In this document: in pieces, positions 190 to 39,172 of the stretch
How positions within the stretch are numbered: position 1 is the stretch's first letter
Layout of the letters: each line of letters begins with the position of its first letter
NCBI RefSeq assembly: GCF_018918095.1
Contig: NZ_JAHLPV010000026.1
Coordinates: forward strand, 1 to 39,550
DNA from: Acetivibrio sp. MSJd-27
GTDB lineage: Bacteria; Bacillota; Clostridia; UMGS1840; HGM11507
Direction of reading: 5' to 3'
DNA: 39,550 bases
Made by a program: the position numbers and the translations under genes
Notes under the pieces: generated by a model
The model's input: only the letters and a program-made list of their open reading frames with translations
The model's database searches: none
Told to the model about the DNA's origin: nothing

Positions 190-318
190 AAAAGGATACA
201 AGAAGAACTTCAAGATAAAAAGGAAGATGCAGAAGGTGGACATAAAAATTATTACTTTTTTATGAAAACATTACAAAGATTTTATGATACCTTGGTAGAA
301 CCAGATACTAAGATATAA
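190..318 (+). pseudogene. Possible 3' remnant of an unidentified ORF
   Basis: An open frame follows an in-frame TAG at 187-189 and runs to TAA at 316-318. It encodes about 42 residues with a coding-like mix of charged and aromatic amino acids, ending in FYDTLVEPDTKI. It has no start codon at its 5' end. The promoter of the next gene overlaps its stop. Best read as the decayed tail of a gene of unknown function; it may also be chance. Confidence 0.25.
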
Positions 319-319
319 T
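292..319 (+). promoter_or_regulatory. Sigma-A-type promoter for the phosphoesterase gene
   Basis: TTGGTA (292-297) is separated by 16 bases from TATAAT (314-319); a second overlapping TATAAT lies at 319-324. It sits about 45 bases upstream of the signal-peptide start, leaving a short leader. Confidence 0.5.
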
Positions 320-362
320 ATAATGCATTTGGTCGATAGGAACATAAAATTATTTTTGAAAT

Positions 363-2909
363 GTGAGAAGAGATTTGAAAAGAAGTTTGAACAGAGTATT
401 CGCTTTATTTCTGGCATTGGCAATGTTTTTTAACCTTGCTGCGGCGGCATCTGCAGCGCCGTCTGATGAGGTGACTTTACAGTTCGCCTCTTCCTCTCTG
501 CAGCCTGCTTACAATAATGCTGTATTTGTAAACGGGATATTCAGCCAGTATATTACCGTAACAGAGGGCAGGCTGAACATTGAGAAAAGCGTTTTGAAGG
601 ATGGCGAAAATACAGTCTCCTTTATCTGCGGAAACAATAAGACAGGCACATACTATGATAGGACCGCAGCGCCAAATACAAGAAATCACAACGATCCAAA
701 GGTAAAAGATATCGCTCTTACTGTGGATGATACAGTCTATATTCCCACAGGTATTGTAAAACATTTTCCTATTGATCAAACAACTCCTGTCGCCATGGAA
801 GAAAGAACGGAACAATCCACTTATGAAGAGGGCACCTTGTATACCTTTGGTGACGGACAGCCAAAATCGGATCCGGAGGGGTCAAATGGAAATCAGATTG
901 TGGATCTGAGCATTCCTTATATGATTGACTTTACTTTTCAGATTGAGCTGAATGAGAAACCAGGCGGTGAAGACTCGGAAGACTACCACTGGAACGTAGA
1001 AGAAGGAAAGGCTTACAGAGGAGAATACAGAGCCGCTGTACAGGCTCCCAACTTGGAAAACCTATCTCTCACCGTGGACGGCACACGTATTGAATCCGTT
1101 AATGCCGCGGGTGACGCGCAATTCACCATGGAATCCAATGGGATCCAGTCGGTAAGCTCCAATTTTAAAAACGCAATCATTGCAAACGAGGGGAGCCCGG
1201 TATATCTTTCCTCTGACAGCGGCATTTCCGAGATCATTTCCGGTTCCGAACTAAAATTCGGTGAATTGAATTCTGTCTTTATCTATTGCGGAAATTCCAA
1301 TGGATATTATGATGAAACGATAGCTCCAAAGAATGTAAATCACGATGATTTTGAGGTCTGGAATTTTGGGCTTACCCTGGCAAACGGTTCTGTAGTGAAG
1401 CCGGTAAAGGTAAAGGAGTATCGAATTACAGACCGCGAAATTCCTGCAAAAGATAACAATAATGTCATTGAAACCGCATTTGAATCTTCAAAGCAGTTCC
1501 GCATAGGCGATGGCTTTCCGGCAGGAAGCGATCTGGCAAGAGACTATAAGATTGAACTTATCTTCGATTTGACCGATTACTCCAATGAAATCAAGTATTT
1601 CCCTATAAATACCGCCGAGTATGGTGACGGTTCTCATATCGTAAAGCTTCTTGACAAGGAAGAGGAAAAGAGAAGCGCCGAGGTGCTGTTTGACAATACA
1701 AGCCCGGAAATCGAACTATCCTTTACAGATGGAGCGGAACTTTTGCAGGGTACACAAATCAATGCAGGGATTACAGATGCAGTTTCAGGGATAGCTGAAA
1801 TAGAAACCCTCATAGACGGAAAAGGAGTAACGCTTCCATACAATACAGAGGGTCTTAGTCTGGGAGAGCACACTTTTTCCGTGAAAGCGAAAGACACTGT
1901 GGGAAATTCCGCTATGAAAAGCGGCAGTTTCAATCTGGTGACAAATACGATTTCTATTACAAATCCTGGAACCGTAAAAATAGAAGAAGGGCACAAACTT
2001 TCCGTGACACCTTCCATCTCCGGCGGGGGCGATATTACCGTAGACTTTTACGAAGGCACGGTACTGAAGAACATCATCATGAAGGGCAACGCTGCAGGCG
2101 ATATGAGCCTTTCCGAAAAAAGTTATGCGGGGGAAACTTCCCTGCGGAAGGCAAACGGATATTATGAAACGTCTGCTGAAAATAATATGCCCTACCAGGT
2201 ATTCGACGTGATGGTGGACGACCTTTCAGATCCCGTCCGCCTGACCTATACAGGGCATACAAGAGAAGGTGAACGGCTCGCCTTAAGTGTATGGAATGAG
2301 AACAATTCCGCTTGGGACAAGGTTGACAGCGATATCTCGCGGGGCAATGACTTTATACTAACTGCTGATGTAGAACCCAAAACATACGCTGTGGACAATG
2401 TGATCAAAGCGCGTGTTGCTCCTGAGGTCGCCGAAAATGGCTCCAATACAATCCTATGGGTGACGGATACACAGTACTATACAGCAAATTATGCTTCTGA
2501 CGACACCTATAATAAAATTATGGAGTGGGCAAAAGAGCAGTATGCGGCAAATAAAATCTCTTATATTACCCACACAGGAGATATCATAGAAAGTGTCGGA
2601 AACGAATCGCAGTGGCTCATCGCAGATGCGGCTCATGACGTTGTTGACAACGCGGGGATTCCAAATGGGGTTACAAGCGGAAATCATGATGTTGGAACTG
2701 CAGGCAATCTGCGATACGAGCTTTATCATAAATATTTCGGAGAAGAACGTTATAATGATAACTTCTGGTACGGCGGTTCCTTGGAGGATAACAAGCACAG
2801 CTATACACTCTTTACAGTAGGAGATAAGGATTTTATTGCGCTTTATCTCGGAATGGGAGAAGAAAACAAGCCGGAAACCATCGCGTGGGCAAATAGGATA
2901 TTGCCATAG
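363..2909 (+). pseudogene. Secreted double-phosphoesterase protein, 5' part up to frameshift
   Basis: This is the first part of a very large exported protein. A signal peptide opens it (residues about 1-31: basic start, then a Leu/Ala/Phe core and Ala-rich cleavage region). GTG 363 is the first possible start; TTG 375 is an alternative because GAGAAGAG lies just before it. Residues about 30-690 are beta-rich surface modules, including an Ig-like stretch near 440-530. A calcineurin-like metallophosphoesterase domain starts near residue 695, with WVTDTQ, HTGDIIE and SGNHD as metal-binding motifs. The frame then stops at TAG 2907-2909 in the middle of this domain. The rest of the same domain continues in another frame, so the gene is frameshifted here. 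It could be a real lesion, an assembly error or programmed; the first two are likelier. Confidence 0.8.
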
Positions 2910-5286
2910 AAATGCCATCGTTAATCTGCACCAGTACAATAATCCGAATGCCGAATACACAACAGACAGAGCCCCCGAAGTTTTTGAAAAAATCATTGTT
3001 CCCAATGATAATGTGGTGTTGGTGCTGTGCGGGCACGATCCGGGTGCATCCAGAAAAGTGAAGGAGATTCCGGGCACGGACAGAACGGTCATTGAACTGA
3101 TGAGCGACTATCAGTTTGTAAACCGCGGCGGAGACGGTTTTATCAGACTTCTGACCTTTGAGAATGGGAAGCTTATCAATAAAACCTATTCGCCTACTCT
3201 GAATCAATACAATGCCTTTGCGGATGATATAGATGACTTTACTTTGGATATTTCCTTAAAAAATGCGGAGAGAACCATTTCCACGAAGAGCTTTACCGCC
3301 GGTTCAATAACGGAAAACAAGCTGGGAACAGCAACCGCGGCAAGTGGAAGCACAGCTCTTATTAAAACGTCAGCGGAGATTGCGGGATGGTATGTAAAAG
3401 CATCTTTGGGCGAAAAGACAGTTACTTCTGAAGTGTTTGGATTTACGGCAAATCCTGCCCTTCAGCCCAAACAGGTAATCGCTCATGTGGGTGAGAATTT
3501 TACCACAGGTATGAACTTCACATGGACTACGGCGGAGGATGCAGCAACGAAAGTGATTCTCAGAGCGGAAAATTCCGATAAGGATATTACCGTAAATGGA
3601 TCCTCCAGCTTGGGTGCAGGCTCCAAATATTTTCACAATGTTACAGTGAACGGTTTGACCCCGGATACTGCATATACATACTGCGTGGGGGACGGCAGCA
3701 ATATGGTTTCCGGGACGTTCCGCACAGCACCCTCCAGCGAATCAAAGGACAGCTTTAAATTCGTATACCTGGCAGATACCCAGATAAGCAACAGCGCAAA
3801 TGCAAAAGCGGCAGGCGCTGTATTCCGGGAGGTTATGGGAATAACAGATTCAGCCTTTACCTTTATAGCAGGCGATGTCACAGATAATGGAAACAGTGAA
3901 GAGCAATACGAGCTGCTTTTTCAAAACGGCGGTTTGGCAGGAAATGCAGGGGAGGAACTCTTTTTGTCGAAAGCGCTTGCTGTGGTAAGAGGGAATCATG
4001 ACAATGATGCCTTTAACGGTCACATCAATGCCCCTGACATTGCAGATGAAAACACATACTCCTTTGACTATGGTCCTGCAAAGTTTATTATGCTGAATTT
4101 GGAGCATAAATCGGCCGAAGAACGCACGGCTCAAGAGATATTTTTAAGAGAGGAAGTAAAAAAGGCAAAAGCATCGGAACAGTGGACCATTGTAGCTTTC
4201 CATAAATCGATCTATACGGGGGCCTCCCATATCGTGGACAGTGATGTTATTGATGCCAGAAAGTACTGGTCTCCTATTTTTGCAGAACTGGACATAGACT
4301 TTGTGATGCAGGGACATGATCACGTATATGCCAGAGGTTTTGTAAACGGAAGCGGAGAGAACGCAAGTCCTGAAACCACAGGCGAAAAAGTGAATCGACC
4401 GCAAAATGCGCCTCTTTATATGGTGGGGGGACATTCCGGGGGTCTGAAGTGGTACAACCAGGTTCCCTATACCGTATCGGAGGGAGATCCATTGACTCCA
4501 AACTACACATTTTTAGACAGGAATTCCACAGATGACGGCAGCGCTGCGAAAAAGGAACAAAACTATATCGAAGTGACTGTTTCCAATACAGAGTTGAGAG
4601 CTGATGTATATATGTTCAAGTATGATACAGACTTGGATACTGTCACGACTGAAAAGTATCTTTATGACACGATCACGGTCAAACGCAATGTATCTGCTTC
4701 ATCCAATATTCAAGTGGAAAACATAAAATGGCACAAGGGCGAAAAGATCCGGGTTCCTGTGACCGCATCTGCAATTGAAAGTCTTGGCCGTCTATATGCT
4801 GAATTCTCCTATGATGATAACCTTCTGAGCTATGCGGGTGTGGAATCAGCAGCATTTGACAGTCTTGCCGCGAACGGGGATACAAACGGTCTTATTAAGA
4901 TGGATGCGATCAGCGCCAAAGGGATCAAAGCATCGGAAAAAACGGTTGTAGCTTACCTTCTATTCAACTTAAAAGAGGAACCAAAAGAAGGTGCTCTCAC
5001 GACGGTTTCTATATCCAATATGGAGGCAAAAGACGCGGCTGTTACCGGAACTCCGGCAACCATTCCGGTTTATGGTGTGAGCGGCACTCTGGAATTTATC
5101 AACAGAAGCTTGGGCGATGTGAATGATGACAATAAAGTAAACGGCGTTGATGCGCTGATGCTGCTTCAACATATTGTAAACCTTAGAGAACTTTCGGAAG
5201 AGGATTTAAGCGTTTCTGATATGAATAATGACGGAGCTTGGGATACCGCCGACGTATTAGCCATTCTGAATACAAGCGTGCAGTAA
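2836..5286 (+). pseudogene. Same protein, 3' part: second phosphoesterase, cohesin and dockerin
   Basis: This continues the preceding gene in the next frame, and meaningful sequence begins about 2900 (CHRNAIVNLHQY). The ATG at 2836 lies in the overlap and is not a natural start. Order: the end of phosphoesterase 1, with a variant CGHDPG in place of GHxH; a linker; a fibronectin-like purple-acid-phosphatase N-domain (about 3480-3730); a complete second metallophosphoesterase (about 3748-4440) with YLADTQ, AGDVTDNG, RGNHDND, AFHKSIY and QGHDHVYAR; a cohesin-like beta domain (about 4690-5090); and a C-terminal type I dockerin (about 5107-5283) with two calcium loops, DVNDDNKVNGVD and DMNNDGAWDTAD. 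Family knowledge: dockerins bind cohesins non-covalently. The next gene encodes a cohesin with SLH repeats, so surface docking is likely. Substrate is unknown. Confidence 0.85.
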
Positions 5287-5300
5287 CAAAACAGCAATCT

Positions 5301-5333
5301 AAGGAGGGCGGCATTACGCCGTTCTCCTTTTCA
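5301..5333 (+). terminator. Rho-independent terminator after the dockerin protein
   Basis: A 12-bp stem (AAGGAGGGCGGC / GCCGTTCTCCTT, two G-U pairs) with loop ATTAC is followed by TTC. It lies between the dockerin gene and the cohesin-SLH gene, so read-through into the latter may be partial. Confidence 0.7.
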
Positions 5334-5347
5334 AAGCGGAGGAAACA

Positions 5348-6430
5348 ATGAAAAAAATATGTTCTTTATTTCTGACATTCATTTTGATCTTTCAATGTGC
5401 TGTAACGACTTTCTCTGTGGGAGAACCAGTTTTGGCACTGTCGGAAGCTACCGGAAAGCGGGGAGCAGATATTACGGTAGAGGTTCATTTGAAAAACCCC
5501 AAGGATATAAAGGCGCTCCAGTTTAAAATTCTTTTTGATACACAGGTGCTAAGTTTGAAGGCTGACGGTATTGAAAAGGCAAAGCTTTCTGGATTTTTAT
5601 TTGAAACAGCAGACAGTGATGGAGAAATTCGAGCCGCTTTAGCAAGCCAATCCGGATTTTCAGAAGTGGGGAAAACAAAGATTTTGACACTTTCCTTTAC
5701 CATTCGGAGTAATGCCCCGCTTGGAGTATCAGCCCTGACTGTTTCTGAGGGAAAGGCATATCTTTCTGAAACAGAACCCTCCGAGCTCCAGATATCAAAC
5801 GGCTCTGTTTTCGTAAAGAGCTCCGGAGATGGGACTATTACCGTGCGGCCGGAAGAAAAACCGGACAAAGAATGGAAAACTTTTGAGGATATCCAAAACC
5901 ACTGGGCGAAGAATGAAATCGAATTTTTGGCGAACAGAGGAATTGTTGATGGCGTATCGGAAAACTTTTATATGCCCGACATCCATATAAAAAGAGGGGA
6001 TTTCATCAAACTTCTGATGGAATTGGAAGAAAAAAAGGATCCGGCAGAGGAACCTTTTTCAGATGTGGTGAAGAGTGCTTATTATTATGAACATATTATG
6101 GCGGCAAAAAAACTGGGGATTGCTAAAGGGACCGGAGACAACTGCTTTATGCCGGAGGCAGAAATCACTAGGGAGGATGCAATGACGCTCCTTTACCGTA
6201 CTGCGGAGGTTACAGCAAAACCGTTTGGGAAAACGGCTGACTTATCTGCTTTTCATGACACGAATGAGATTTCCAACTATGCAGAAGAAGCGGTAACTGC
6301 ATTGGTTGCGGAAGGTATTGTGCAGGGAGATGATACGAAGGCGATTAGGCCAAAGGCCTCTATCACAAGAGCGGAAGCGGCAAGAATATTGTATTTGTAT
6401 CTGCTTTATTCAAATTCCGAAACAGTATAA
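5348..6430 (+). CDS. Cohesin-SLH cell-surface anchoring protein
   Basis: This 360-aa exported protein starts at ATG after a good ribosome-binding site (GGAGG, about 7 bases upstream). Residues 1-25 form a signal peptide. Residues about 28-155 form a cohesin-like domain (ALSEATGKRGADITVEVHL at its start, then LQFKILFDTQVLSL and GKTKILTLSFTI). Three SLH repeats follow, starting near residues 178 (FEDIQNHWAKNEIEFLANRG), 236 and 300, each with the hydrophobic spacing and the ITR-x-(D/E)A ending usual for SLH. Known: SLH triplets bind secondary cell-wall polysaccharide, and cohesins capture dockerins. The architecture matches single-cohesin anchoring scaffoldins. Its neighbour immediately upstream ends in a dockerin, making it the natural partner. 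The direct binding is inference. Confidence 0.88.
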   Translation: MKKICSLFLTFILIFQCAVTTFSVGEPVLALSEATGKRGADITVEVHLKNPKDIKALQFKILFDTQVLSLKADGIEKAKLSGFLFETADSDGEIRAALASQSGFSEVGKTKILTLSFTIRSNAPLGVSALTVSEGKAYLSETEPSELQISNGSVFVKSSGDGTITVRPEEKPDKEWKTFEDIQNHWAKNEIEFLANRGIVDGVSENFYMPDIHIKRGDFIKLLMELEEKKDPAEEPFSDVVKSAYYYEHIMAAKKLGIAKGTGDNCFMPEAEITREDAMTLLYRTAEVTAKPFGKTADLSAFHDTNEISNYAEEAVTALVAEGIVQGDDTKAIRPKASITRAEAARILYLYLLYSNSETV

Positions 6431-6527
6431 AATAAAGATGTCTCAAGCGCTGGAAAAAATAGAAATCTGAAAGACGGATGCGGAAAAAATGGTCTGTTTT
6501 ATGAAACAATTGAAAACCATTCAGAGA

Positions 6528-6556
6528 AAGAGGAGGTTTTTGCCATCCTCTTTTTT
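6528..6556 (+). terminator. Terminator-like hairpin after the cohesin-SLH gene
   Basis: AAGAGGA and TCCTCTT pair across an 11-base loop and are followed directly by a run of T. It lies about 100 bases after the stop codon of the cohesin-SLH gene. Confidence 0.65.
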
Positions 6557-6595
6557 GTATGCGTTTTTTGGTGTGGCAAAATTCTGCTGCAAACA

Positions 6596-6626
6596 CAAAA
6601 AAAGGGACAGCGCATATGCGCTGTCC
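6596..6626 (-). terminator. Perfect palindromic terminator of the CBM9-like gene
   Basis: GGACAGCGCA and TGCGCTGTCC form an 11-bp self-complementary stem with no free loop bases in the DNA sequence (6605-6626). Read on the minus strand it is followed by C and seven T, as expected for an intrinsic terminator of the gene at 6692-7282. Confidence 0.75.
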
Positions 6627-6691
6627 AAAATAAGGGGGCTTAAATGTATTTGTGAGGTCAATGATAGTATTGCCTCCTTCCTGAATTCTAT

Positions 6692-7282
6692 TCATTTTAT
6701 TAAAAAATTTCCGAAGTGTTGGCTTAAATGAAAATCAGGAGTTGGATTTTCAATAGGATTCCAGCATGCAAAGTGGGGATATTTCGTTTCATCACCGCAC
6801 TTATATACATTTCCTTTCATGCAAAATCCGCTTTCTGCCCGGAAGGAAGGATAATATTTCTGTATCACTGCGAATGGGATTTGATAGGATACCGTCCAAA
6901 CGTTTTTTTCTGCATCAATATGCGCTTCAATGTGCAGGGAATCCAACTCCTCCTCGGTTAGAAACCGCCTATGATGCCTGTCGGGACCGATTTTAAATTT
7001 GGCAAAGCCGTTGGGATTGATCTCAATATTGATATAGTCCTCGGAATGAGCAGGATCGTAATTGCAGAAGAACTCTACACAGCTGTCCGTATGAATATCC
7101 GTGTTGTGAGCTGTCATCTCATTGCGGATAAAATCCTCTTTTGTGCGGAAGCGGACAAAAAAGTTTTTCTCGTCCCGAGTGACCAAAAATTCACTGCTGG
7201 GGTGATATCCGGTTTCGTCCCAGGGAAAGTTGTCAATCGGGGTGAACGTTTGATTTGCTTTTTCAATTGAATAGGTTTTCAT
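6692..7282 (-). CDS. CBM9-like carbohydrate-binding protein, no signal peptide
   Basis: This 196-aa protein is read on the minus strand. The start codon (complement of 7280-7282) follows GGAGG at a normal distance. The sequence fits the family 9-like carbohydrate-binding / DOMON-like beta-sandwich: SCVEFFCNYDP, YINIEINPNG, VWTVSYQIPF and a C-terminal FACWNPIENPTPDFHLSQHFG are features I associate with that family, where conserved aromatics line the ligand face. There is no signal peptide or membrane segment, and the whole protein is essentially one domain. It is monocistronic, opposite to its neighbours, and has its own terminator. Ligand unknown. Stand-alone cytoplasmic members occur in Firmicutes and Bacteroidetes, and their role is not established. 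Confidence 0.75.
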   Translation of the reverse strand: MKTYSIEKANQTFTPIDNFPWDETGYHPSSEFLVTRDEKNFFVRFRTKEDFIRNEMTAHNTDIHTDSCVEFFCNYDPAHSEDYINIEINPNGFAKFKIGPDRHHRRFLTEEELDSLHIEAHIDAEKNVWTVSYQIPFAVIQKYYPSFRAESGFCMKGNVYKCGDETKYPHFACWNPIENPTPDFHLSQHFGNFLIK

Positions 7283-21309: not shown

Positions 21310-24300
21310 ATGAAGAGCATGAAAAAAGCATTAAGCTTATTTTTGGCATTGTCGATGCTTATGACTGTATGCGCTGTCAATATACTGGCAGAGGATACCG
21401 TCACGCTGACGGTGCCGAATGGAAACTTTGCAAACACATGTGACGCAAACGGTACCTTGCCGGATGGCTGGAGATCGAAGCCGCTTCAGCTTACGGCGGG
21501 CAACGCATCAGCAACCTATGAAATTCTGAGTACTTATAATAATCCGGTCGATAATGATGATAAAACCGGTGCGTTAGAGATGCTGTATCGAAGCGGCGCT
21601 GGCGGATTTCCGGCAATTGAATCGCCGAAAATCCCTCTGGACAGCGCTTTAACGGAAACCAGAGAATTTACATTGACGGTAGATTACTGCAACAATATTG
21701 CAAGTGCGGCGATCCATTTTTACAATGCGGAAGGTAAGCTTTATAATGGTAGCGAGTGGGTGGACGAGTTGCAGGCTGGTATGGGACAGACCGCATGGCA
21801 AATGAAAGATGCGGTAGGGAACCCTTCCTATATAGCGAAAGCGGCGACATCTGCTTCTTGGAAAACTATGACGATTACAGCTGTTGCACCGGTCGGAACA
21901 AGCAGTGTTTCGGCATATCTTCTTGGGTTCTTAGGTGGCTCTGGCCGTGTAAGATATGACAATGTCACAATCAGCTATAAATCGATCGCATCGGTTGCAG
22001 GATTGCAGCCAGTGAGGAATTTAGTAGCGTCTGCCAGCGACAAACAGGTTACCCTTTCGTGGGGTCTGCCAGCGGATACAACAAACTATGCCGGTGTAAA
22101 AATTGCCGTGAAAAACGGGGCGACACCGGTCAAGGAAGTTTTTGTGGAAGATGCCGCAAAAACCTCCGAAACGATTTCGCAGCTTGAAAACGGTGTGAAT
22201 TATACCTTTGAAGTCTATGCAATGAACGCGGATAAAAGCAAATTCTCCGAGGCGGTTTCAGTGAATGCCGCGCCCGTGGCTCCGAAAGAAGGCGTTGTCA
22301 CTATCCCGAACGGAGATTTTGAGAAGACGGCGGCGGTGAACTCTGCTTTGCCGGATGGCTGGTCTTATCAGGTTTATGTACAGCCAGATGCATTGCTGGA
22401 TCCAGCTCAGCTGTATTATCTGATCGGCAGCGACAGAGGAAATGGAACCAGTGCGGCGGGAAGCAACAGCCTTGTGATGAAGTGTCCTGGGCTGAATGCG
22501 GCGCTTGGCTATAATAAGCCGGCAATGATGGTGATGTCACCTGTTGTGCTGTTGGAAAGTGAATTGACAGAGCCGCAGAAATTTACTTATACATTCGATT
22601 ACAACGCAATTCGTTACAATGCGAATACTGCTATTTTATTTTTCAACGCGGAGGGGAAGGTTTACAACGGAACCGAATGGATTGACTGGACTGTCAAAAC
22701 CGACGACGATTGGAAATTCACGGATTCATCCGGACAAAAAGGATGGTTTTCGACGGATAACGGAACCACGGCAACCGGATGGAAAACAGGAGAGATCATC
22801 ACGGAAGCACCTGCGGGTACAGCCGGCGTAAGAGTTGTTGCAGTAGCAACCGGGGGCGGCGCCAGTTTGTGTGCTCTTGATAATTTAAACATTACTTACG
22901 GAGGTCAGACACCCGAGATTACCGTACCGAACCCGGTGACAAATCTGAAGGCGGTTTCCGGTGACAAACAGGTTACCCTTTCATGGGATTTACCGGAAGA
23001 TACTGCGAACTATGCCGGCGTAAAAATTACAGTGAAATCCGGTTCCAGCACAGTGACAACACTGTATGCGGAAGGGAAAGAAGCAACGTCTAAAATAGTG
23101 AATGGATTGACCAACGGTACGCCATATACCTTTGAAGTACAGTCTATGAATGCAGACAAATCAGAGTTTGCGGACACCGTTTCTGTCACTGCGACCCCGC
23201 ATGAGGAAGGGCAGATTGTTACAATTCCTGTAAAAAACGCAATAAAAGACAGGGCAATGTATGCGGACGATCATCAATTAACGGTGGACTTAGGGATTAT
23301 TTCTTCCAATCCTCCCACAGGATCCGACGGGATTCTTTACAACAATATTGTAAATGCTACAAATGTATTTGATACAGATAACACAAAACTGACTTTCAGC
23401 TCTGACACACCGGGAGTATCGTTTGTTAAGACACCCTATCGTCTCGGATTGACATACTCCGGAGGTTACAGTACTTGGGCTGATGTACAGAAACTCCAGC
23501 TTGTCTATCGGCCGGATGCCTCTCAGGCAGGCAAACAGGTTACGATTCAGGTCAAAGCAACGGTTGCTGAGAGCGATCAGGTATTAGCGGAGGAAACGGC
23601 TTCCTTCAAAGTGACGGTTACACCTGTACCGCAGGACGAATGGAAACCTACAGGAGAAGGACGCGAAACCTACCTTACCGTTCCCAATGGAAATTTTGAC
23701 AGAACCACTACAGCAAACGAATTTAAAAACAATTTTAACAAGGATATTCCCGGCGGTTGGCACGCTTTACTGTGGGCTGCACCAAATCCTGTTATGGGGG
23801 ATGACCGTGTGGGCTACAACGTGATCAATAAGAATGCGACGACAGATGCTGGTGTTGACGGACAGGGCATGGACATCAAAGGCGGTGTTGCAGAGACAAC
23901 GGAGGGGAACATACTGATCGAATCCGGCAGGATTGCGACCCCCAGTACAGCTGCAAGAAAATATACCATGGGCTTCCAGTACAAGGGCGGAAGAAACTCC
24001 GGAAAACCGGCCGCAGCTATGTTCTTCTATAATGCGGACGGGGAACTCTATATGGGCAACGGTGTGTGGAAAGCGGATGCCACCGCAGCGGATATGTGGA
24101 GCAGCAAGGACGCCGAGGGGAATGCCGCATACTTACAGTACGATGTAGTATCAGGCTTTACTTCCGCTAAACTGGAACGGTTTGCACCGGAAGGAACCTC
24201 TTACGTTACCGTCGCGTTTGCCGCAACAGGAGGAACAGCCTACCGTTTTCAGGTTGACAATGTAAGTTTAATGTACGTTGATAATCTGGCGCCTGTAATC

Positions 24301-24933
24301 AATACGGAAAATCCATATACCAAAACCATTTCCTTGGGAGAAACCGTTCGCCTCAATCTGGCAGAGACATTTACAGACCCGGATGGCGATGTGATGACAT
24401 ATACCATAGAAGGGACAAATGGAATAATTGAAAACGGTGTCTTTAGCTACACACCGAATAAACTCGGTTCCGCAACCGCTGCTGTTGCCGCAACCGATTC
24501 TTACGGCGAGAAAACAGTATTAAATTTGACTCTCACAGTGAATGATGCGGTCTCCAGCACCACTGTGAACAAGGATATCAAGCCTGTGACAAAAGCGACG
24601 GTGAATGGTTCCGTGGTGCTAAAAAAAGCGGATGGATCCAATGTAACCTCTTTAAGTCAGCTGAACGCGGGCGAAACATTAAAAATCAATGTAAGTTTGA
24701 AGAATACAAGCGAGCTCCCAGTTACTACCACCTTGCTCATCGTCAAATACGATGCCAACGGCGTGGTTGAATCCGTTACAACGAAAGTTATCGTGATTCC
24801 TTCAACTGGCGGAGATCCGGATTACACCACGGTAAGAGACTATGTGGTGGAGAACAACTCCGGTTCTGTCGAAGTAATGCTTTGGGATTCAGCTACCAAC
24901 TTGAATTCTCTGATTGATCCGATTCGGATTTAA
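21310..24933 (+). CDS. Large secreted modular protein with three repeated beta-sandwich modules and two Fn3 domains
   Basis: This 1207-aa protein has a GGGGG ribosome-binding site and a signal peptide (residues 1-28). Order: module A1 (about 34-225; begins TVPNGNFANTCDANG and includes LPDGW and RYDNVTISY); Fn3-1 (about 230-322); module A2 (about 328-530; IPNGDFEKTAAVN, LPDGW, ALDNLNITY); Fn3-2 (about 539-635), close in sequence to Fn3-1 (DKQVTLSWxLPxDTxNYAGVKI); an Ig-like domain (about 636-775); module A3 (about 788-990; VPNGNFDRTTTAN, PGGW, QVDNVSLMY); a cadherin/Ig-like domain (about 995-1083); and a C-terminal beta region. The A modules resemble CBM4/9-like carbohydrate-binding sandwiches. 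There is no catalytic domain, SLH, dockerin or sortase signal, so attachment is unclear. It heads the surface-gene run. Confidence 0.88.
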   Translation: MKSMKKALSLFLALSMLMTVCAVNILAEDTVTLTVPNGNFANTCDANGTLPDGWRSKPLQLTAGNASATYEILSTYNNPVDNDDKTGALEMLYRSGAGGFPAIESPKIPLDSALTETREFTLTVDYCNNIASAAIHFYNAEGKLYNGSEWVDELQAGMGQTAWQMKDAVGNPSYIAKAATSASWKTMTITAVAPVGTSSVSAYLLGFLGGSGRVRYDNVTISYKSIASVAGLQPVRNLVASASDKQVTLSWGLPADTTNYAGVKIAVKNGATPVKEVFVEDAAKTSETISQLENGVNYTFEVYAMNADKSKFSEAVSVNAAPVAPKEGVVTIPNGDFEKTAAVNSALPDGWSYQVYVQPDALLDPAQLYYLIGSDRGNGTSAAGSNSLVMKCPGLNAALGYNKPAMMVMSPVVLLESELTEPQKFTYTFDYNAIRYNANTAILFFNAEGKVYNGTEWIDWTVKTDDDWKFTDSSGQKGWFSTDNGTTATGWKTGEIITEAPAGTAGVRVVAVATGGGASLCALDNLNITYGGQTPEITVPNPVTNLKAVSGDKQVTLSWDLPEDTANYAGVKITVKSGSSTVTTLYAEGKEATSKIVNGLTNGTPYTFEVQSMNADKSEFADTVSVTATPHEEGQIVTIPVKNAIKDRAMYADDHQLTVDLGIISSNPPTGSDGILYNNIVNATNVFDTDNTKLTFSSDTPGVSFVKTPYRLGLTYSGGYSTWADVQKLQLVYRPDASQAGKQVTIQVKATVAESDQVLAEETASFKVTVTPVPQDEWKPTGEGRETYLTVPNGNFDRTTTANEFKNNFNKDIPGGWHALLWAAPNPVMGDDRVGYNVINKNATTDAGVDGQGMDIKGGVAETTEGNILIESGRIATPSTAARKYTMGFQYKGGRNSGKPAAAMFFYNADGELYMGNGVWKADATAADMWSSKDAEGNAAYLQYDVVSGFTSAKLERFAPEGTSYVTVAFAATGGTAYRFQVDNVSLMYVDNLAPVINTENPYTKTISLGETVRLNLAETFTDPDGDVMTYTIEGTNGIIENGVFSYTPNKLGSATAAVAATDSYGEKTVLNLTLTVNDAVSSTTVNKDIKPVTKATVNGSVVLKKADGSNVTSLSQLNAGETLKINVSLKNTSELPVTTTLLIVKYDANGVVESVTTKVIVIPSTGGDPDYTTVRDYVVENNSGSVEVMLWDSATNLNSLIDPIRI

Positions 24934-24977: not shown

Positions 24978-25001
24978 TTACAATAAAATGGAGGTATGAA
25001 C

Positions 25002-27791
25002 ATGGGATACAGGAAATCGATCTCGTTATTGCTTGTATTGCTGTTAAGCATTCACATATTATTTATCCCGGCAGTCGCTTTTGATGACATTGGGGACAGC
25101 GACAATGCCGAGGCAATTGAAACCCTTTCCGGCCTGGGCATCTTGTCAGGCTACAGTGAAGGAAGTTTTATGCCGGATGGGAAGATTACCCGTGCGGAAT
25201 TTGCGGTTATCGTGACCAAACTGACTGGGTTTGAAGCGGTAAACAACGAAACATCGACTCCCACTCCTTTTGCGGATGTGGAGGATACTTACTGGGCAAA
25301 CAACTATATTAATTATGTCAACAGCATGGGCTTCATGATAGGCAATGGCGACGGATTCAGTCCGGAAGCGGAAGTCACTGTCGATGAAGTGCAAAAAGTT
25401 CTGGTTGAAGTACTGGGCTATGGCTTTCGGACCATGAATATGGGATATCCGGACGGATACCGCAGTGTTGGAAGCGAGCTTGGCATATACAGCAAAGTGA
25501 AATCCAAATATACAGAGCCCGCCACAAGAGGCGAAGTCGCTCAGATGGCGTACAATTGTATTGATATCAAAGTGTACAAGAGATCTGTTTTTGGCGGTGA
25601 CAAAATCACATACAGTCAAGGCGAGGATCTGTTAAAGGAATATCTGAAGATTGACACCTGGAAGGGCGTTGTTGTAGAAGATTCTTTGAGCGGTCTGACT
25701 GGGCCTTCCTCCCTTTCTGACAGTCAGATGCGGATTAAAACGGCAAAGACAGGGGAGATTGTACAGATCGATACCAATGAAAACGCTGTAAGCAGCTATC
25801 TTGGGACATCGGTTACCGCTTACACCAAAGAAAATGAGCTGGAAGAGAATGAACTGCAGTATATCAAGCTGAACAAAAACGGATATAAAAGTCTTTTGAT
25901 TACCGCGGATCAATTCGTTCAATTTGAAGATGGAACCGTGCTCTACAATTTGGATCCGGACGGAAATGGCACAGACAAGAAGATAAGTGTGCTTCCATCT
26001 TTGGACATTGTATACAACGGTGTGTACTATGACGGAGACAAAGCTTCTATCATGAATATTGATTCCGGAACGCTGGATTTTGCCGATACCGATGACGACG
26101 GAATGTATGATCTGGTAAAAATTCAGGAAAAGGAATATATTGTTGTTGACAGTGTTTCCGCGGAAGAAGGAAGAATCATCGATAAATATTCCTATGAGAA
26201 TAATATCGAAGTGGATGTGGACGATCCGGACAATTTGATTGAAGTGACAAAGTTTAATCTTCCCCTGACGATAGGCGCGTTGACTTCCGGTGACGTGGTG
26301 GAGGTTGTACGCTCCAAGAATTCTACCGGCAAAAAGTTATATAAACTGACGGTTATAAACAATCAGATTGCCGGGGAAATCACTTCTTACAGCGATGATT
26401 CCGTGTGGATAGGGGATAAAGAATACAAACTTTCCTCCTATTATAAAAACAACAAATCAGAGATTGGAGCACTTCCGACCGGAGTTAATACCAGCTTTAT
26501 TCTAGATTCGGATAACCGGGTTATGTTGGCAGCGGATACGGTAAGTACCTATCTGTACGGCTATTTCGTAGGAATAGAACAGGAATCGGAATTATCCGAT
26601 CCCGTAATAAGAATTTTCACTTCCGGCGGAAAAATGACAGATTTTACGCTCGGCTCCAATGTTTTGTTGGATGGCAAAAGCAAAGCTACCGTAGAGGACA
26701 TCAACACGAATCTCTCCCAGGCGAAATACGGAACCTCTGTGACGACCAAGGACTTAGGGCAATTGATTCGTTATAAGACCAACAAGGCAAATGAGATTAT
26801 TGGAATTGACACAGCACGTGCCAATATTCCGGGCAATGCGGAACAGGATCAGGATGAACTGTCCAATGACAGGAACGGGGAACTGAAATGGTTGAGCGGG
26901 CCGAAGAGCTTTGATGGAACTCTGATGGACGATCAGGCGATTCTATTTGGTATTCCGGCTGATACAACCCGGTATGACAAGTACACAATCCACAAGGCAT
27001 CCACCCTTCCAAATTCAAAATATCAAGTATCTCTATATAATATTGATGAGATCGGGGTTGCAAAAGCTGCTGTGGTGACAGGTGATTCTGTTGCCGAGAT
27101 TGAGAACGATGACCCGGTTTCTATGATAAAGAAACTTGTTGATACGGTAAATGCGGAGGGCGACATCGTGAAGAAAATGTATACAGTAGAATGCAAATCG
27201 GCTTCTGAAAAAGAATTTTTCTTTACAAATGACTCTCAGTGTTTTGAGTACACAGCAAATCCTCTGCCCAATCCAAACGGAGAGATTACAGATCAGAAAC
27301 AGGCGCTGAAAGCTGGAGATGTCGTACGTATACTGGCGGAAGGCAGCAATGTGAGAAAAGTGGAGAGATTGCTTTCCATCGATCATCTCAAAGAAAATGT
27401 ATCTCCCACCAATTCTGCAACAGCTCTTCCAGGAGAAATTACTGCAATGGGCGGCGAAAATAAAGATTATTCTTATCTGCTTCGCTTTGTAACGGGCAGG
27501 TTGATGAGCCGCCAGGACAGATATATCAAGTTGGGAATCATAAATGCCAGTGATGCAACGACGGATTCCGGGCGGAAAGAACTGTCCTACTACCTGCAAG
27601 ATACCGCAAAATTCGTTGTATATTCTGAGAACAGCGCAGGCGCTGCCTCGGTGAAATCAGCTTCTATCGGCGATATGAAAGATGAGCGGGCCAATGGGAC
27701 AAAGGCGTCCTACGTCTTTGCAAAAAGCCGTTACGGCGTACTGCAGGAAGTATTCATCTACAACTTTTATACCGACCCTTGGGCCAACTAG
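25002..27791 (+). CDS. S-layer-like protein with N-terminal SLH repeats
   Basis: ATG 25002 is chosen because GGAGG at 24990-24994 lies seven bases before it; the in-frame ATG at 24996 is too close. The product is 929 aa. A signal peptide (about 1-25) is followed at once by SLH repeats at residues about 27 (FDDIGDSDNAEAIETLSGLG) and 90 (FADVEDTYWANNYINYVNSM). A degenerate third ends near 180 (ATRGEVAQMAYNC). The remaining 740 residues are beta-rich, acidic and without recognised motifs. N-terminal SLH with a long beta-rich body is the layout of classical S-layer proteins, so it may be a structural surface-layer component. The next gene begins 18 bases downstream. Confidence 0.87.
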   Translation: MGYRKSISLLLVLLLSIHILFIPAVAFDDIGDSDNAEAIETLSGLGILSGYSEGSFMPDGKITRAEFAVIVTKLTGFEAVNNETSTPTPFADVEDTYWANNYINYVNSMGFMIGNGDGFSPEAEVTVDEVQKVLVEVLGYGFRTMNMGYPDGYRSVGSELGIYSKVKSKYTEPATRGEVAQMAYNCIDIKVYKRSVFGGDKITYSQGEDLLKEYLKIDTWKGVVVEDSLSGLTGPSSLSDSQMRIKTAKTGEIVQIDTNENAVSSYLGTSVTAYTKENELEENELQYIKLNKNGYKSLLITADQFVQFEDGTVLYNLDPDGNGTDKKISVLPSLDIVYNGVYYDGDKASIMNIDSGTLDFADTDDDGMYDLVKIQEKEYIVVDSVSAEEGRIIDKYSYENNIEVDVDDPDNLIEVTKFNLPLTIGALTSGDVVEVVRSKNSTGKKLYKLTVINNQIAGEITSYSDDSVWIGDKEYKLSSYYKNNKSEIGALPTGVNTSFILDSDNRVMLAADTVSTYLYGYFVGIEQESELSDPVIRIFTSGGKMTDFTLGSNVLLDGKSKATVEDINTNLSQAKYGTSVTTKDLGQLIRYKTNKANEIIGIDTARANIPGNAEQDQDELSNDRNGELKWLSGPKSFDGTLMDDQAILFGIPADTTRYDKYTIHKASTLPNSKYQVSLYNIDEIGVAKAAVVTGDSVAEIENDDPVSMIKKLVDTVNAEGDIVKKMYTVECKSASEKEFFFTNDSQCFEYTANPLPNPNGEITDQKQALKAGDVVRILAEGSNVRKVERLLSIDHLKENVSPTNSATALPGEITAMGGENKDYSYLLRFVTGRLMSRQDRYIKLGIINASDATTDSGRKELSYYLQDTAKFVVYSENSAGAASVKSASIGDMKDERANGTKASYVFAKSRYGVLQEVFIYNFYTDPWAN

Positions 27792-27809
27792 AAAAGGGGG
27801 AACAGAATC

Positions 27810-29465
27810 ATGAGCAAAAGAATCTTATCTATAATCTTGGCGGTATGCCTGGCGGCAGTGATGTTCTCTTTCCCTGTGCTGGCCGCAGCCGATGTCACCT
27901 ATACCGTGGAAAAAGACAAGATTATCTTAGCCGGTCAGACCGATACGACGGCGGCCGATCAAAACGTATCCGTGGTGGTGCTGAAAAATGGCGTCACCTA
28001 TCAGCAATACCAGAATGCGACACCGGAACAGACCGGGGCGTTAACCTTTTTTGCCAAAACAGGAAAGACAACCGCCGGCGGTGCATTTTCCATGGAGATA
28101 AAACTGCCTGAAAATTCCGCGCCCATGTCTATGATTGCTATTTTAGGAGACGCCGCTTTTACAAAAGTCAAGGTAATGACAGTTATCTATGCAACGCAGG
28201 AAGATATCGCTGCGATTGTAACCGCGTTTAATGCAGCGAATACAAAAGATAAGGTGATTGATTTTCTTGATGAGTATGAGACACTACTCGGCACTGTCAT
28301 CACCAAAGACAAACAAAACAATGCCTTTTATAACTATCTGGCTTCCAAGACAGCTTCCTCCAGCGACCAAAATGGTCTGAATCAAATTATCACTTTTTAT
28401 AATGACGGAATGCTGAAGGAATGCATTGCACAGGCGAAAACCGTTGAGGAAATCAACACGGCGGTTGAAGCTTATGATGTAAAATCTCTTTTTGTCAATG
28501 ACGATTTGGAGCTTGTGGCGGAAAGAGAATTGGACAGTAAACTGTCCTCCCTGTTGAGCGGAAAAACATACAGCGAAGCGGAGGACGCCGTTTACCGCTT
28601 GAATGAATCCATCTTCCTGACATTGTTCAACAATACGGCTTCCAGAGATGAGATGATTTCTCTGTTTAACCAGTACAATGAAACGTATGTGGGAGTCAAT
28701 ACAGGAAGCGGTTCCAATTACAGCAAAGCAGATAAACAGTCTCTGTTTAAGACCATAGCGGCGCAGGCGGCAAAAACGCCTTTTCAGGACGGTGACTCTC
28801 TGAAAAAAGCGATTGACAAAGCGGCAACCCCCACCGGTGGGAACACCGGAAACGGAGGTTCCACCGGTGGCGGCGGAAACAATGTGGATGTTTATCCTAC
28901 ACCGACGCCTGCACCGGTTGGATTTGAATTCAATGATATCGGCGGCGTGGCTTGGGCGAAAGACAGCATCTATTCTCTGGTTGACAAGGGTGTTATCGCA
29001 AAGGATCCCTCCAAGCAATTCCGTCCTGACGACAGCATTACAAGGCAGGAATATGTGAAGCTTCTGGTAACTGCTCTGGACATTTACGATGCAAACGCAT
29101 CCTGTAATTTTGTGGATGTATCCAAGGACGAGTGGTATTATCCCTACATCGCCTCCGCGGTTAGTAAGGGAATTGTAAAGGGTGTTTCCGACACCGAGTT
29201 CGGTATTGACCGGAATATCACCAGAGAGGATATCGCGGCACTGACATTCCGCGCGGCGCAAGCCTTCGGAATGGATCTGCCGCAGAGCAATCCGGAAAAA
29301 CAGTTTGCAGACGCACAGGATATCAGTGCATATGCACAGGAAGCGATTTCCGGAATGACAAAGGCAGGTATCATCAATGGGTATGAAGATAATACCTTCC
29401 GTCCGAAAAATACGGCAACCCGCGCAGAAGCAGCTGTTATCATCGGGAAATTCATTAAAAGGTAA
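27810..29465 (+). CDS. SLH-domain surface protein with helical repeats and Gly-rich linker
   Basis: This 551-aa protein has AAAGGGGG before ATG 27810 and a signal peptide (1-26). Residues about 27-130 form a beta domain. Residues about 135-330 are helical, with two loosely similar halves (ATQEDIAAIVTAFNAANTKD and KTVEEINTAVEAYDVKSLFV). A Gly/Asn/Ser/Thr then Pro/Thr linker (about 337-368) leads to three SLH repeats from about 373, 433 (FVDVSKDEWYYPYIASAVSKG) and 498 to the end. It shares the overall plan of the protein at 11813-13465. Its closeness to the preceding gene suggests co-expression with the S-layer-like protein. Function beyond wall attachment is unknown. Confidence 0.88.
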   Translation: MSKRILSIILAVCLAAVMFSFPVLAAADVTYTVEKDKIILAGQTDTTAADQNVSVVVLKNGVTYQQYQNATPEQTGALTFFAKTGKTTAGGAFSMEIKLPENSAPMSMIAILGDAAFTKVKVMTVIYATQEDIAAIVTAFNAANTKDKVIDFLDEYETLLGTVITKDKQNNAFYNYLASKTASSSDQNGLNQIITFYNDGMLKECIAQAKTVEEINTAVEAYDVKSLFVNDDLELVAERELDSKLSSLLSGKTYSEAEDAVYRLNESIFLTLFNNTASRDEMISLFNQYNETYVGVNTGSGSNYSKADKQSLFKTIAAQAAKTPFQDGDSLKKAIDKAATPTGGNTGNGGSTGGGGNNVDVYPTPTPAPVGFEFNDIGGVAWAKDSIYSLVDKGVIAKDPSKQFRPDDSITRQEYVKLLVTALDIYDANASCNFVDVSKDEWYYPYIASAVSKGIVKGVSDTEFGIDRNITREDIAALTFRAAQAFGMDLPQSNPEKQFADAQDISAYAQEAISGMTKAGIINGYEDNTFRPKNTATRAEAAVIIGKFIKR

Positions 29466-29548
29466 AACATGGAGCAAGACGGTGGAAAAATAGAGTTATG
29501 TTATGCTGATTGCTCAGGGGAAGAGCGATCCTTGAAAGGAATTTTAAA

Positions 29549-32041
29549 ATGTTGAAAAACAGATTATTATCTGCAGCATTATCTATTATTTTTTCATGCA
29601 GCATGTTGTTTGCAGCTCCCAGCACGGCTCTGGCTGAGGAAAAAACGCCGGTTTCCGAGATTACCTTTTCCGAACCAGAGAATGTTGGAAAGCCAATTAC
29701 GGCAACCACACTGTTAAACTCCGTTGCAAGTATGGAGGATGGCAAGCCCATCCTCTGTACAACGGTTTCCGGTTCTCCTGCAAAGTTTAATGTAATCGAT
29801 CTGGAGACTGGGAGATTGTTACACAGCTTTGATGCCGAGAAGGGGAACACTATGTGGACTCATGCGGTGGATTCCAAGGGAAATGTTTATACCGCAGGCT
29901 ATACTCGTGCGACGCTGTACCGTTACAGTCCGGAAACGAAAACCTTTGAGGATCTGGGTGCGGTTTCCAAGGAGAGTGCGGTGTGCCAAATCGTTGTGGA
30001 TGACAAAGACAATGTTTATATGGCAACCTATCCCAATGCGAAGCTGGTTAAATACGATGTGGCTACAAAACAGATGATGGATTTTGGCAACGTTTTGCCA
30101 GGGGAAAAATATTTCAAATCCATGGTGTATTACAACGGCTGTATTTACGGCGGAGGGGATGCTGTTGGGACACAGTTTGTAAAGATCGATCTTAAAACTC
30201 TCCAGAAAACCTATTATAAGGCTCCGAAGACCAGTTCCGGTATTAAATCGTATTATACTGCAACACTTGCAGGCGATAAAATCCTAATATATTGCGGAAC
30301 ACAATCATCTGGGTCTATTTACACAGTGTTTGATTTGAAAAAGGAAGCGTTTCTGGATATTGAAATTCCGAAAGCGGCAGGACTTTCCTGCTCCCCAGAA
30401 CTGAACGGATACTCGTATTTTGTATCAAACGGAACCGTTTACAAGTTCAATCTGACAGACAACACCTATGAGCCGACCGATATCAAATATGGATCCGGAT
30501 TCCGAGGGGGAAGCTTTGTGGAATTGAAAACACATCCAAACCTGCCGAATAAGACGTTTGTGACGGTGGTTTACGGAGGTTCCATTTCTCTGATCGATTT
30601 GGAGACAGGAGCCCGCGAGGATTACAGAAATTCGGTGGATCCGACCGGGACTTCTCTGGTAGCGGTAAAAGCGATTGGAAAAGACGTGTATGCGTCCGGG
30701 CATCAGGGTCCCCGCGCCACCTGGTATGATCCGGAAAAGCGTGAAGTGAAAGCGACATTTGCTATGGGACAGTCAACCCCGATTGAAGAGATCGACGGAA
30801 AAGTTTATTTCGGCTGTTATCCGGATGCGAGCCTGAGTGTTTACGACCCTGCACAGCCGGTAAAAGAAGGAACCAACCCCCAAAAAGTAGTGCGGCTCGC
30901 AGATGACAAATCTTTAGGGCAAAGCCGGCCGATGGATATTGTCGGCGCGGGCGGTAAGGTGGTTTTCTCCACGATCGCTGACTATGATATGCACGAAGGC
31001 GCTATCACGGTTTACGATCCGGAAACCGGAAAATTTGACTGCTATAAAAATATCATCAAAAACCAAAGTGTATCGGGACTTACCTATAAAGACGGTATTT
31101 TATACGGTTCCACAACCATTTTCGGCGGTCTGGGCGGCGATCCTTTGGCGCAGGAAGCAAAGATTTTTAAATTTGATATGAACACCAGAAAAGTAATCAA
31201 AGAGGTAACGCCGAAGTTTAAGGAGCAAAAAGGCTTATGCAAAATGGCGGGAGATTTGGCATTTGGTCCGGACGGGCTTCTTTGGAGCATATCGGATGGT
31301 CTGCTGTTTGCTATGAATCCAGAAACCCTTGAGGTTGTGAAAGAGAAAAACATCAATGGATATAACTGGGAGAGCTATTCTTCCAGATGGAATCCGTATA
31401 CCTTAGAGTTTGACAAGGATGGACTTCTTTATTGCACACCCCGCAATACAGCTATGGTTGTGGATATTGAGACAATGGAATATAAAAATATTCTTCCGAA
31501 GGAATATGACAAAAACTGCGGTTCTATCTCAGTGAGCGAAGACGGACATGTATATTTCTATAACAGGGATAGCATCTACCGCGTCCACCGTACCAACAAG
31601 GCGGAAAAAGACCAAATGATTGCATTGATGATAGACAGCGTGAAAACCAAAGTCGGCGATCAGGAGGTAACATTGGATGTTCCGGCGAAAACCGTTCAGG
31701 ACAGGACGATTGTTCCGGTCAGATTTATTGCGGAATCCCTGGGGGCGGAAGTCAAATGGGATGAAGCCACCGAAACGGTTACCATCATTAAAGGTTCTGA
31801 TACACTGAAAATTGTTCTTGGCGAACAGAAAATAGATAAAAATGGTCAGGAAATCAAAATTGATGTCACCGCTTTTGAAGAAAATGGCAGAACGCTGCTT
31901 CCGCTTCGGGCTATTGCGGAGGCGTTTGACAAGCAGGTTTTCTGGGATGATCGCGGGCTGATTCTGATCGGTGACACGCCGGTGGACGCGGAAAAAGACA
32001 AAGCGCTTATCGACGCGCTGATAGAGGAATTAAAGAAATAG
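29549..32041 (+). CDS. Secreted beta-propeller protein with C-terminal stalk (CuAO_N1-like) domains
   Basis: ATG 29549, eight bases after GAAAGGA, gives 830 aa; a TTG at 29510 in frame is less likely because it would put 13 residues before the signal peptide. After the signal peptide (about 1-30), residues about 45-680 form propeller-like repeats (KFNVIDLETGRLLHSF, NVYTAGYTRATLYRY, NVYMATYPNAKLVKYD and so on). Residues about 694-815 hold two copper-amine-oxidase-N-type stalk repeats (DRTIVPVRFIAESLGAEVKW and GRTLLPLRAIAEAF). The 36065-39172 protein is a clear paralogue. Stalk domains are common surface-display parts in Clostridia. Propellers of this kind occur in some polysaccharide lyases and in glycan-binding proteins, but no catalytic residues can be assigned here. 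Confidence 0.85.
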   Translation: MLKNRLLSAALSIIFSCSMLFAAPSTALAEEKTPVSEITFSEPENVGKPITATTLLNSVASMEDGKPILCTTVSGSPAKFNVIDLETGRLLHSFDAEKGNTMWTHAVDSKGNVYTAGYTRATLYRYSPETKTFEDLGAVSKESAVCQIVVDDKDNVYMATYPNAKLVKYDVATKQMMDFGNVLPGEKYFKSMVYYNGCIYGGGDAVGTQFVKIDLKTLQKTYYKAPKTSSGIKSYYTATLAGDKILIYCGTQSSGSIYTVFDLKKEAFLDIEIPKAAGLSCSPELNGYSYFVSNGTVYKFNLTDNTYEPTDIKYGSGFRGGSFVELKTHPNLPNKTFVTVVYGGSISLIDLETGAREDYRNSVDPTGTSLVAVKAIGKDVYASGHQGPRATWYDPEKREVKATFAMGQSTPIEEIDGKVYFGCYPDASLSVYDPAQPVKEGTNPQKVVRLADDKSLGQSRPMDIVGAGGKVVFSTIADYDMHEGAITVYDPETGKFDCYKNIIKNQSVSGLTYKDGILYGSTTIFGGLGGDPLAQEAKIFKFDMNTRKVIKEVTPKFKEQKGLCKMAGDLAFGPDGLLWSISDGLLFAMNPETLEVVKEKNINGYNWESYSSRWNPYTLEFDKDGLLYCTPRNTAMVVDIETMEYKNILPKEYDKNCGSISVSEDGHVYFYNRDSIYRVHRTNKAEKDQMIALMIDSVKTKVGDQEVTLDVPAKTVQDRTIVPVRFIAESLGAEVKWDEATETVTIIKGSDTLKIVLGEQKIDKNGQEIKIDVTAFEENGRTLLPLRAIAEAFDKQVFWDDRGLILIGDTPVDAEKDKALIDALIEELKK

Positions 32042-32208
32042 AAAAAGGGATTCGAAAGGATACCGATAAAGGGCGATCCATTTGATGTATTAAGAAAATC
32101 GAATACAGACAGGCAAAGGCCTTTCTTATCTTTATTCTTAAAATTGAGACAGGCAGATGTCAATGGAATGGCATCCGCTTTATCAAGAACAATGGAGGAA
32201 TGTGAACA

Positions 32209-33878: not shown

Positions 33879-33918
33879 CGGATGTTGTGCAGGGCATTGA
33901 CATCAGGAGGAACAGTGA

Positions 33919-34014
33919 ATGCCAAAGATGCATGAGAAGGTATGCCGAAAACAAGACACAGGGAATTGGAATAATAGAGGTGCGAGGTGTGAAGCTGAAT
34001 TTTATCGGCATTGA
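33919..34014 (+). other. Short SD-led upstream ORF overlapping the GH20 start
   Basis: The best ribosome-binding site in this gap (AGGAGG, 33905-33910) serves ATG 33919 of a 31-codon frame that ends at TGA 34012-34014. The frame differs from that of the GH20-like gene and overlaps its first codons. It could be a translational-coupling leader or a sign that the 5' end of the enzyme gene has shifted frame. Confidence 0.3.
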
Positions 34015-39000: not shown

Positions 39001-39172
39001 CAAAAGTGAGGCAAACCATGTGGAAACAGGCGTGGGAGAATGGCAGACAGCGGTGATAGACGCGGAAGTTCCGGCGGGCACCGCCTATGTTCAGCCTTTG
39101 ATGAATGTTACAGCCTTCTTCATGACAAAAGCATATTATGATAATGTCCAACTATATGCTTTTGACAAATAA
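36065..39172 (+). CDS. Secreted beta-propeller/stalk protein with C-terminal carbohydrate-binding-like module
   Basis: This 1035-aa protein has AAAGGAGAGG before ATG 36065 and a signal peptide (1-27). Residues about 40-690 are propeller repeats close to the 29549-32041 protein: NFNVIDIENEKLVRSF, SWSHITDGKGNVWIAGCEPA, NVYFGTFPNAYVVKFD and NVIDIDTMEYIRL all have direct counterparts there. Two stalk repeats follow (about 707-826; DRTLVPVRFIAESIGASVGW and DRTLLPLRAIVEALG). It then extends, unlike its paralogue, with a CBM4/9-like beta-sandwich (about 880-1035; EVPNFSFENGTVG, KALYLEDTN, YYDNVQLYAF). This suggests a surface protein that recognises or processes a glycan. It has its own promoter and a strong terminator. 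Enzymatic activity cannot be assigned. Confidence 0.87.
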   Translation: MTRTKKILSVLLAVSILCSVVPSALAAEPAGPFKSQKLNSKTFLDAYSLGVPHTQSIGIDSVAGMEDGVPMVYATSSGKPGNFNVIDIENEKLVRSFSMGDSTSSWSHITDGKGNVWIAGCEPAQLYKYDTKTKEFKGYGQAFKQGAAYNLTLDEEGNVYFGTFPNAYVVKFDINTEQYENLGQVFPNERYARSIEYYKGKIYAGGQSDNTKMVEMDLKTKKITEIPLPQLDGKTIKPTTVYTMRRSRQYIFVNLNGKFGDYGEWIQCVYNADTGKWKDILTNAGSLYASTEFEGDVYLKANDKLCIFHLDTGTLERTEKPYTWSPRGVTGVYVNGRKCLATADYSGYAGVYDIEKGEYRKITEAPMKGTGAVLQSLVCNTETDRLYCGSVMGASCAEIDGKTGKLIRRFSLGQPEGLYIENNTMYAGIYPAGQFDKLEIGAPDDQEVKRTKLFTFGEEQQRPYIIKPMEDDYFIIGSVPNYGQLGGALTIYNKKTNEFKVYRNVVQDQSVVGLAYKDGLIYGATCISGGLGTNPSQPSAKLFVFDPKIGQKTKEWVPQFPSRMGTPIRHIGDLEVGPDGNIWGACQEMLFCMDPKTQDIKKTLFLNDVKWYEGSLWRPVYLRWGKDGLLYTSQGNVPNVIDIDTMEYIRLTKQAGGSSPMISLDSQDNIYITVDTELRKICSVPRKLDNAALRNIYQGTDGGMALFVDNRYAIVNGGMAQIDPENIDVTPIVKDDRTLVPVRFIAESIGASVGWDDPTQTVTVNRGSDVIKLVLGSDKMLVNSTEQTLDVPAQTLNDRTLLPLRAIVEALGQKVFWDDRGLIVIQSDESKLPSDKTVIDDTVYFFDSYATAEYSKYTDKKVILDAHKEYNEKYAANKVEVPNFSFENGTVGTKEVDNWKLLTKNGENTDYYLSDEMAIDGEKALYLEDTNTKGGVGVMVDAIPVKEGAKRYVMKTDMFITEGRCSIYLRFLDANKKEIKSEANHVETGVGEWQTAVIDAEVPAGTAYVQPLMNVTAFFMTKAYYDNVQLYAFDK

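Follow-up and report, generated by a model that had tools for sequence, protein, structure and literature searches.

A phosphoesterase gene with cohesin and dockerin modules beside a cohesin–SLH gene: a probable non-cellulosomal anchoring pair

An interrupted phosphoesterase gene and a gene encoding one cohesin and three SLH repeats lie side by side at this locus. The window, the whole 39,550-nucleotide stretch that we analysed, corresponds to contig C26 in a draft genome of 3.05 Mb (104 contigs, 98.8% complete) from a bacterium in a small order with few sampled genomes. Three ORFs matter, all on the plus strand: 363-2909 and 2836-5286, which overlap in different frames and encode the two halves of the enzyme, and 5348-6430, which encodes the anchor protein. 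The features are as follows:

363-2909, plus strand: ORF 1, N-terminal enzyme half, 848 aa, GTG start
2448-2822, plus strand: partial Metallophos domain (Pfam) in the last part of ORF 1
2836-5286, plus strand: ORF 2, C-terminal enzyme half, 816 aa, internal TTG start, no signal peptide
about 2898-2909, plus strand: frame break within phosphoesterase domain 1, with the frame 0 stop TAG at 2907-2909
3031-3045, plus strand: GHDPG of domain 1 in place of the homologues' GHYHG, without the second GHxH His
3466-3720, plus strand: PAP N-terminal domain (PAP-N) in ORF 2 (Pfam)
3757-4329, plus strand: phosphoesterase domain 2, intact (Metallophos E 9e-15)
4702-5049 (fold about 4690-5090), plus strand: cohesin on the enzyme, from a custom profile and predicted fold
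5110-5265, plus strand: type I dockerin (PF00404, E 6e-10 in the genome search)
5116-5151, plus strand: dockerin calcium loop 1, DVNDDNKVNGVD, with N replacing G at position 6
5218-5253, plus strand: dockerin calcium loop 2, DMNNDGAWDTAD
5301-5329, plus strand: hairpin between the enzyme and anchor genes, a 12-bp stem followed by a short U run
5348-6430, plus strand: anchor gene, 360 aa, with a signal peptide (by eye), one cohesin and three SLH repeats
5417-5824, plus strand: anchor cohesin (PF00963 E 3.8e-10; Cohesin E 1.4e-9 in a Pfam scan of the ORF)
5879-6394, plus strand: three SLH repeats of the anchor (SLH E 1e-30), whose motifs read KRGD, TRED and TRAE
6524-6556, plus strand: terminator-like hairpin downstream of the anchor gene

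Only the second of the two phosphoesterase domains is intact. ORF 1 begins with a signal peptide (by eye) and continues through an N-terminal beta-rich or Ig-like region into the first half of domain 1. By Pfam, the custom profile and fold prediction, ORF 2 carries in order the rest of domain 1, PAP-N, domain 2, the cohesin and the dockerin. Domain 2 retains every metal motif of calcineurin-like/PAP phosphoesterases (D, GDxxD, GNHD, H, GHxH), here DTQ, GDVTD, GNHD, AFH and GHDH, and purple acid phosphatases are its closest solved relatives by sequence. Domain 1 is frameshifted and reads GHDP rather than GHYH, so one metal-ligand His is gone. An earlier note on this DNA had described one protein ending at 5286 with two calcineurin-type domains; this holds for domain 2, but domain 1 is split and has lost its His, and a single intact protein over 363-5286 is rejected because the halves lie in different frames.

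Either the assembly is wrong at the break or the break is recent. Beyond the TAG, the homologous reading resumes in a different frame. Domain 1 homologues in three genomes (L060, L061, L065) are continuous across the break and, in an alignment of 279 columns, share about 41% identity with the two halves joined as one chain; relative to them, the junction in the window lacks a few residues. Alternative frames contain about 50–60 stops each, whereas both halves are otherwise open (848 and 816 codons) and have normal codon-position composition. Judged from the sequence, openness on this scale points to a misassembly or to decay that has only just begun. The break leaves the secreted half without a dockerin and the dockerin half without a secretion signal, so the encoded copy, as assembled, may not work at all. 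We therefore infer the working form from its domain relatives and the otherwise open frames. Programmed frameshifting is not favoured, since no slippery heptamer is visible by eye and residues of the homologues are absent at the junction.

The enzyme ends in a cohesin followed by a dockerin. PF00404 scores above its curated cut-off across two DxNxDGxxxxxD-like loops, confirming the earlier assignment of a type I dockerin with both calcium loops. The cohesin, earlier placed at about 4690-5090, is upheld by the custom profile and the predicted fold but missed by PF00963 up to E 10. That profile, built from 13 cohesins including the anchor's own and not the enzyme's, recovers it at E 1e-8. An AlphaFold2 model of 4660-5286 (pLDDT 88) shows a beta-sandwich and then three dockerin-like helices. 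The best PDB match to this cohesin is the non-cellulosomal cohesin 2XDH (Foldseek E 8.7e-11; TM 0.78 on target length), with many cellulosomal cohesins ranking behind it. A profile of the cohesin–dockerin (Coh-Doc) tandem recovers solved cohesins and dockerins from sequence alone.

The next gene encodes one cohesin and three SLH repeats, as first described. The anchor cohesin scores above the PF00963 cut-off and adopts the cohesin jelly-roll; the top structural matches of its model (pLDDT 83) are all cohesins. Structure prediction, proposed earlier as a check, thus returns cohesin folds for both regions, with the OlpA (3UL4) and OlpC (4DH2) cohesins among the structural matches. The SLH repeats carry TRAE-like motifs behind a signal peptide (by eye), the makeup of a surface anchor. 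Sixty-seven stretches of the genome match the anchor protein, nearly all across its SLH part, so SLH anchoring is normal for this host and its surface proteome is SLH-rich.

A stable hairpin separates the two genes. The 61-nt spacer folds with an MFE of -21.7 kcal/mol (z -4.7), and co-transcription is therefore not assured. The hairpin may be attenuator- or terminator-like, or an mRNA stabiliser. It could give the two products unequal mRNA levels, much as intergenic stem-loops are reported to do in the R. cellulolyticum cip-cel operon (PMC4423207, PMC10311766), or it could simply be a terminator. It was not seen in the relatives L150 and L160.

In the host genome, one dockerin and two confident cohesins were detected. 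A PF00404 search of the 3.05 Mb assembly detected a single dockerin, and the custom cohesin profile found exactly two cohesins across the whole genome, both in the enzyme/anchor pair. The pair thus looks self-contained, and within the cell only these two cohesins were detected as possible partners for the single dockerin. The genome-wide search suggested in the earlier note bore out both cohesins and returned no further dockerins or confident cohesins; the proposal that the enzyme recruits further dockerin proteins loses its support for this cell, because no other dockerin was found. These counts also reject a cellulosome: the host genome yielded one dockerin and two single cohesins, but neither a multi-cohesin scaffoldin nor any dockerin-bearing glycoside hydrolase.

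Similar gene pairs recur in the family and class. Among 391 genomes of the class, cohesins occur in 130 and dockerins in 163 (E 1e-6), so it is common for these modules to be used in low copy, with no large scaffoldin. Dockerin cargo across the class includes LRR_5, lectin and Ig-like proteins, which makes the earlier statement that such pairs normally surround carbohydrate enzymes too narrow: they are common here and their cargo is often not a CAZyme. A genome of the same family and another genus (G003) has a 408-aa frame with a cohesin and three SLH repeats and, about 23 bp on, a 234-aa dockerin frame whose dockerin lies below the Pfam cut-off (E 5e-4) and scores 5e-16 with the custom profile. 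Consecutive genes encode Doc, Coh-Doc and Coh+SLH proteins in G164, and Coh-Doc, Coh+SLH and Doc proteins in G181; Coh-Doc tandems are common across the class. We also surveyed 26 loci (15 + 11), picked only for listed cohesin hits and leaving out genomes with large scaffoldins. In seven (L136, L137, L139, L140, L141, L145, L148) a dockerin-bearing gene directly adjoins a separate cohesin-bearing gene, a count that is only indicative, given the bias of the sample towards strong cohesin hits and the shortness of some contigs. The partner cohesin protein has SLH in L137, L150 and L160, Cu_amine_oxidN1 in L139 and, by eye, a VPQTG-type tail in L140. The custom profiles found nothing in L162, a locus picked for a PF00963 match.

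Two arrangements in these genomes are recorded separately. In G002, of the same family, a weakly cohesin-like 329-aa frame stands directly before a 187-aa dockerin frame (L026, 4937-6467). At L167 (6062-13999), two neighbouring genes each have a Coh-Doc-Coh arrangement.

No close copy of the whole enzyme was found in the genome contig collection, only relatives of its phosphoesterase domain in Paenibacillus and Saccharibacillus, and the phosphoesterase core is absent from all eight other sampled genomes of the order. In G064 (L057), a Metallophos protein has a subthreshold C-terminal dockerin.

We favour a dedicated, non-cellulosomal anchoring pair, with a probability of roughly 0.6. The dockerin at the C-terminus of the secreted phosphoesterase would bind, with calcium, the one cohesin of the anchor protein, whose three SLH repeats would attach the complex to cell-wall polysaccharide. 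The enzyme's own cohesin, just before the dockerin, may brace the dockerin or link enzyme molecules head to tail. Binding, its calcium dependence, the surface location and the substrate are what we infer for the pair; the genome counts, the cohesin folds of both modules and the adjacent dockerin and cohesin genes in G003, G164, G181 and 7/26 loci all argue for it. The minimal two-gene anchoring idea of the earlier note fares well on the same counts and adjacency. Set against it are a dockerin gene out of frame at about 2901-2909, with no signal peptide on the dockerin half, the stable intergenic hairpin, and the prospect that the dockerin and the anchor cohesin have different partners.

The strongest alternative, though doubtful, is a decaying locus: a phosphoesterase gene that has recently become a pseudogene, beside an anchor gene left as an orphan. 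This would account for both the broken frame and the lost GHxH His of domain 1, and the phosphoesterase core occurs in 0/8 other sampled genomes of the order. However, the long open halves with their normal codon-position composition and the preserved motifs of domain 2 argue against it, and the break could be a draft-assembly error.

Self-assembly is unlikely. Here the enzyme dockerin would bind the enzyme cohesin of another molecule, giving chains capped by the SLH anchor. Both modules do sit on the enzyme and Coh-Doc tandems are common in the class; R. bromii Amy4, a member of the amylosome, in which calcium-dependent docking has been shown, likewise has both, and self-aggregation has been proposed for it (PMC5814915). 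The tight Coh-Doc spacing and the commonness of the tandem are also compatible with a structural support role, however, and, since the enzyme and anchor cohesins have diverged, a single dockerin may fail to bind both. Least probable is docking across species, with the dockerin or cohesin modules facing partners on other cells: the 130/391 and 163/391 genomes offer plentiful partners, but dockerin and cohesin-anchor genes lie side by side again and again across families, which fits partners encoded together.

The anchoring pair resembles several known systems and matches none of them fully. The R. bromii amylosome (Amy4/Sca1, Sca2, Sca5) likewise combines an enzyme bearing cohesin and dockerin with separate cell-anchored cohesin proteins, but it has amylase cargo, several dockerins and scaffoldins and sortase anchors, where this locus has one dockerin, a phosphoesterase and an SLH anchor. 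Cellulosomal SLH anchoring scaffoldins of the OlpA, OlpC and SdbA type likewise use cohesins to hold dockerin partners on the cell; unlike the genomes that use them, this host has no detected multi-cohesin scaffoldin or dockerin-bearing glycoside hydrolase. Cohesin and dockerin modules outside cellulosomes are found in Archaeoglobus fulgidus (2XDH) and in Clostridium perfringens GH84/GH33 proteins (2JH2, 2VO8), although the cargo there differs from the phosphoesterase here. None of these is known to have an adjacent dedicated SLH anchor. Paenibacillus PAP-like metallophosphoesterases (L017, L018, L020, L022) share the PAP-type core at 32–35% identity and have SLH fused in the chain, whereas here the anchor is a separate protein that would be joined through dockerin and cohesin.

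On our best reading, the enzyme/anchor pair exemplifies a non-cellulosomal anchoring unit that recurs and has been little described. We suggest, more tentatively, that such one-plug, one-socket display units are widespread in the class, carry varied secreted cargo and are separate from cellulosomes. In each, a gene for a dockerin-bearing (often Coh-Doc) cargo protein would adjoin a gene for a cohesin with an SLH, sortase-like or other wall-binding tail; the cargo would include phosphoesterases, LRR proteins and lectins. No paper combining dockerin, cohesin and metallophosphoesterase emerged from a full-text search of open-licence literature. Should the pair bind, it would be a very small closed cohesin–dockerin system, with one dockerin and two cohesins per genome, so specificity and stoichiometry would be easy to test. 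Binding would also suggest that cohesin–dockerin docking is a general means of surface display in the class, with cellulosomes as one elaborate case.

Two extra weak PF00963 matches, at C7:110040 and C26:24640 (E about 0.017), were considered as further cohesins and rejected because the custom profile recovered neither. The C26 match (24640-24825) lies at the C-terminal end of a 1207-aa protein encoded at 21310-24933, and the C7 match (L023, E about 0.017) falls in a 2009-aa frame; each lies just upstream of an SLH gene.

The host genome also contains two similar blocks, at 24996-33780 of the window and at 313-7008 of a C7 locus (L025). In both, the genes encode, in this order, an SLH protein (about 930–940 aa), an SLH-type protein (about 550 aa) and a solute-binding-type lipoprotein (about 525 aa); they are positioned at 24996, 27810 and 32209 in the window and at 313, 3160 and 5416 in the C7 locus. 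Two secreted propeller-like proteins with Cu_amine_oxidN1 domains, encoded at 29510-32041 and 36065-39172 of the window, flank a GH20 enzyme gene at 33887-35818.
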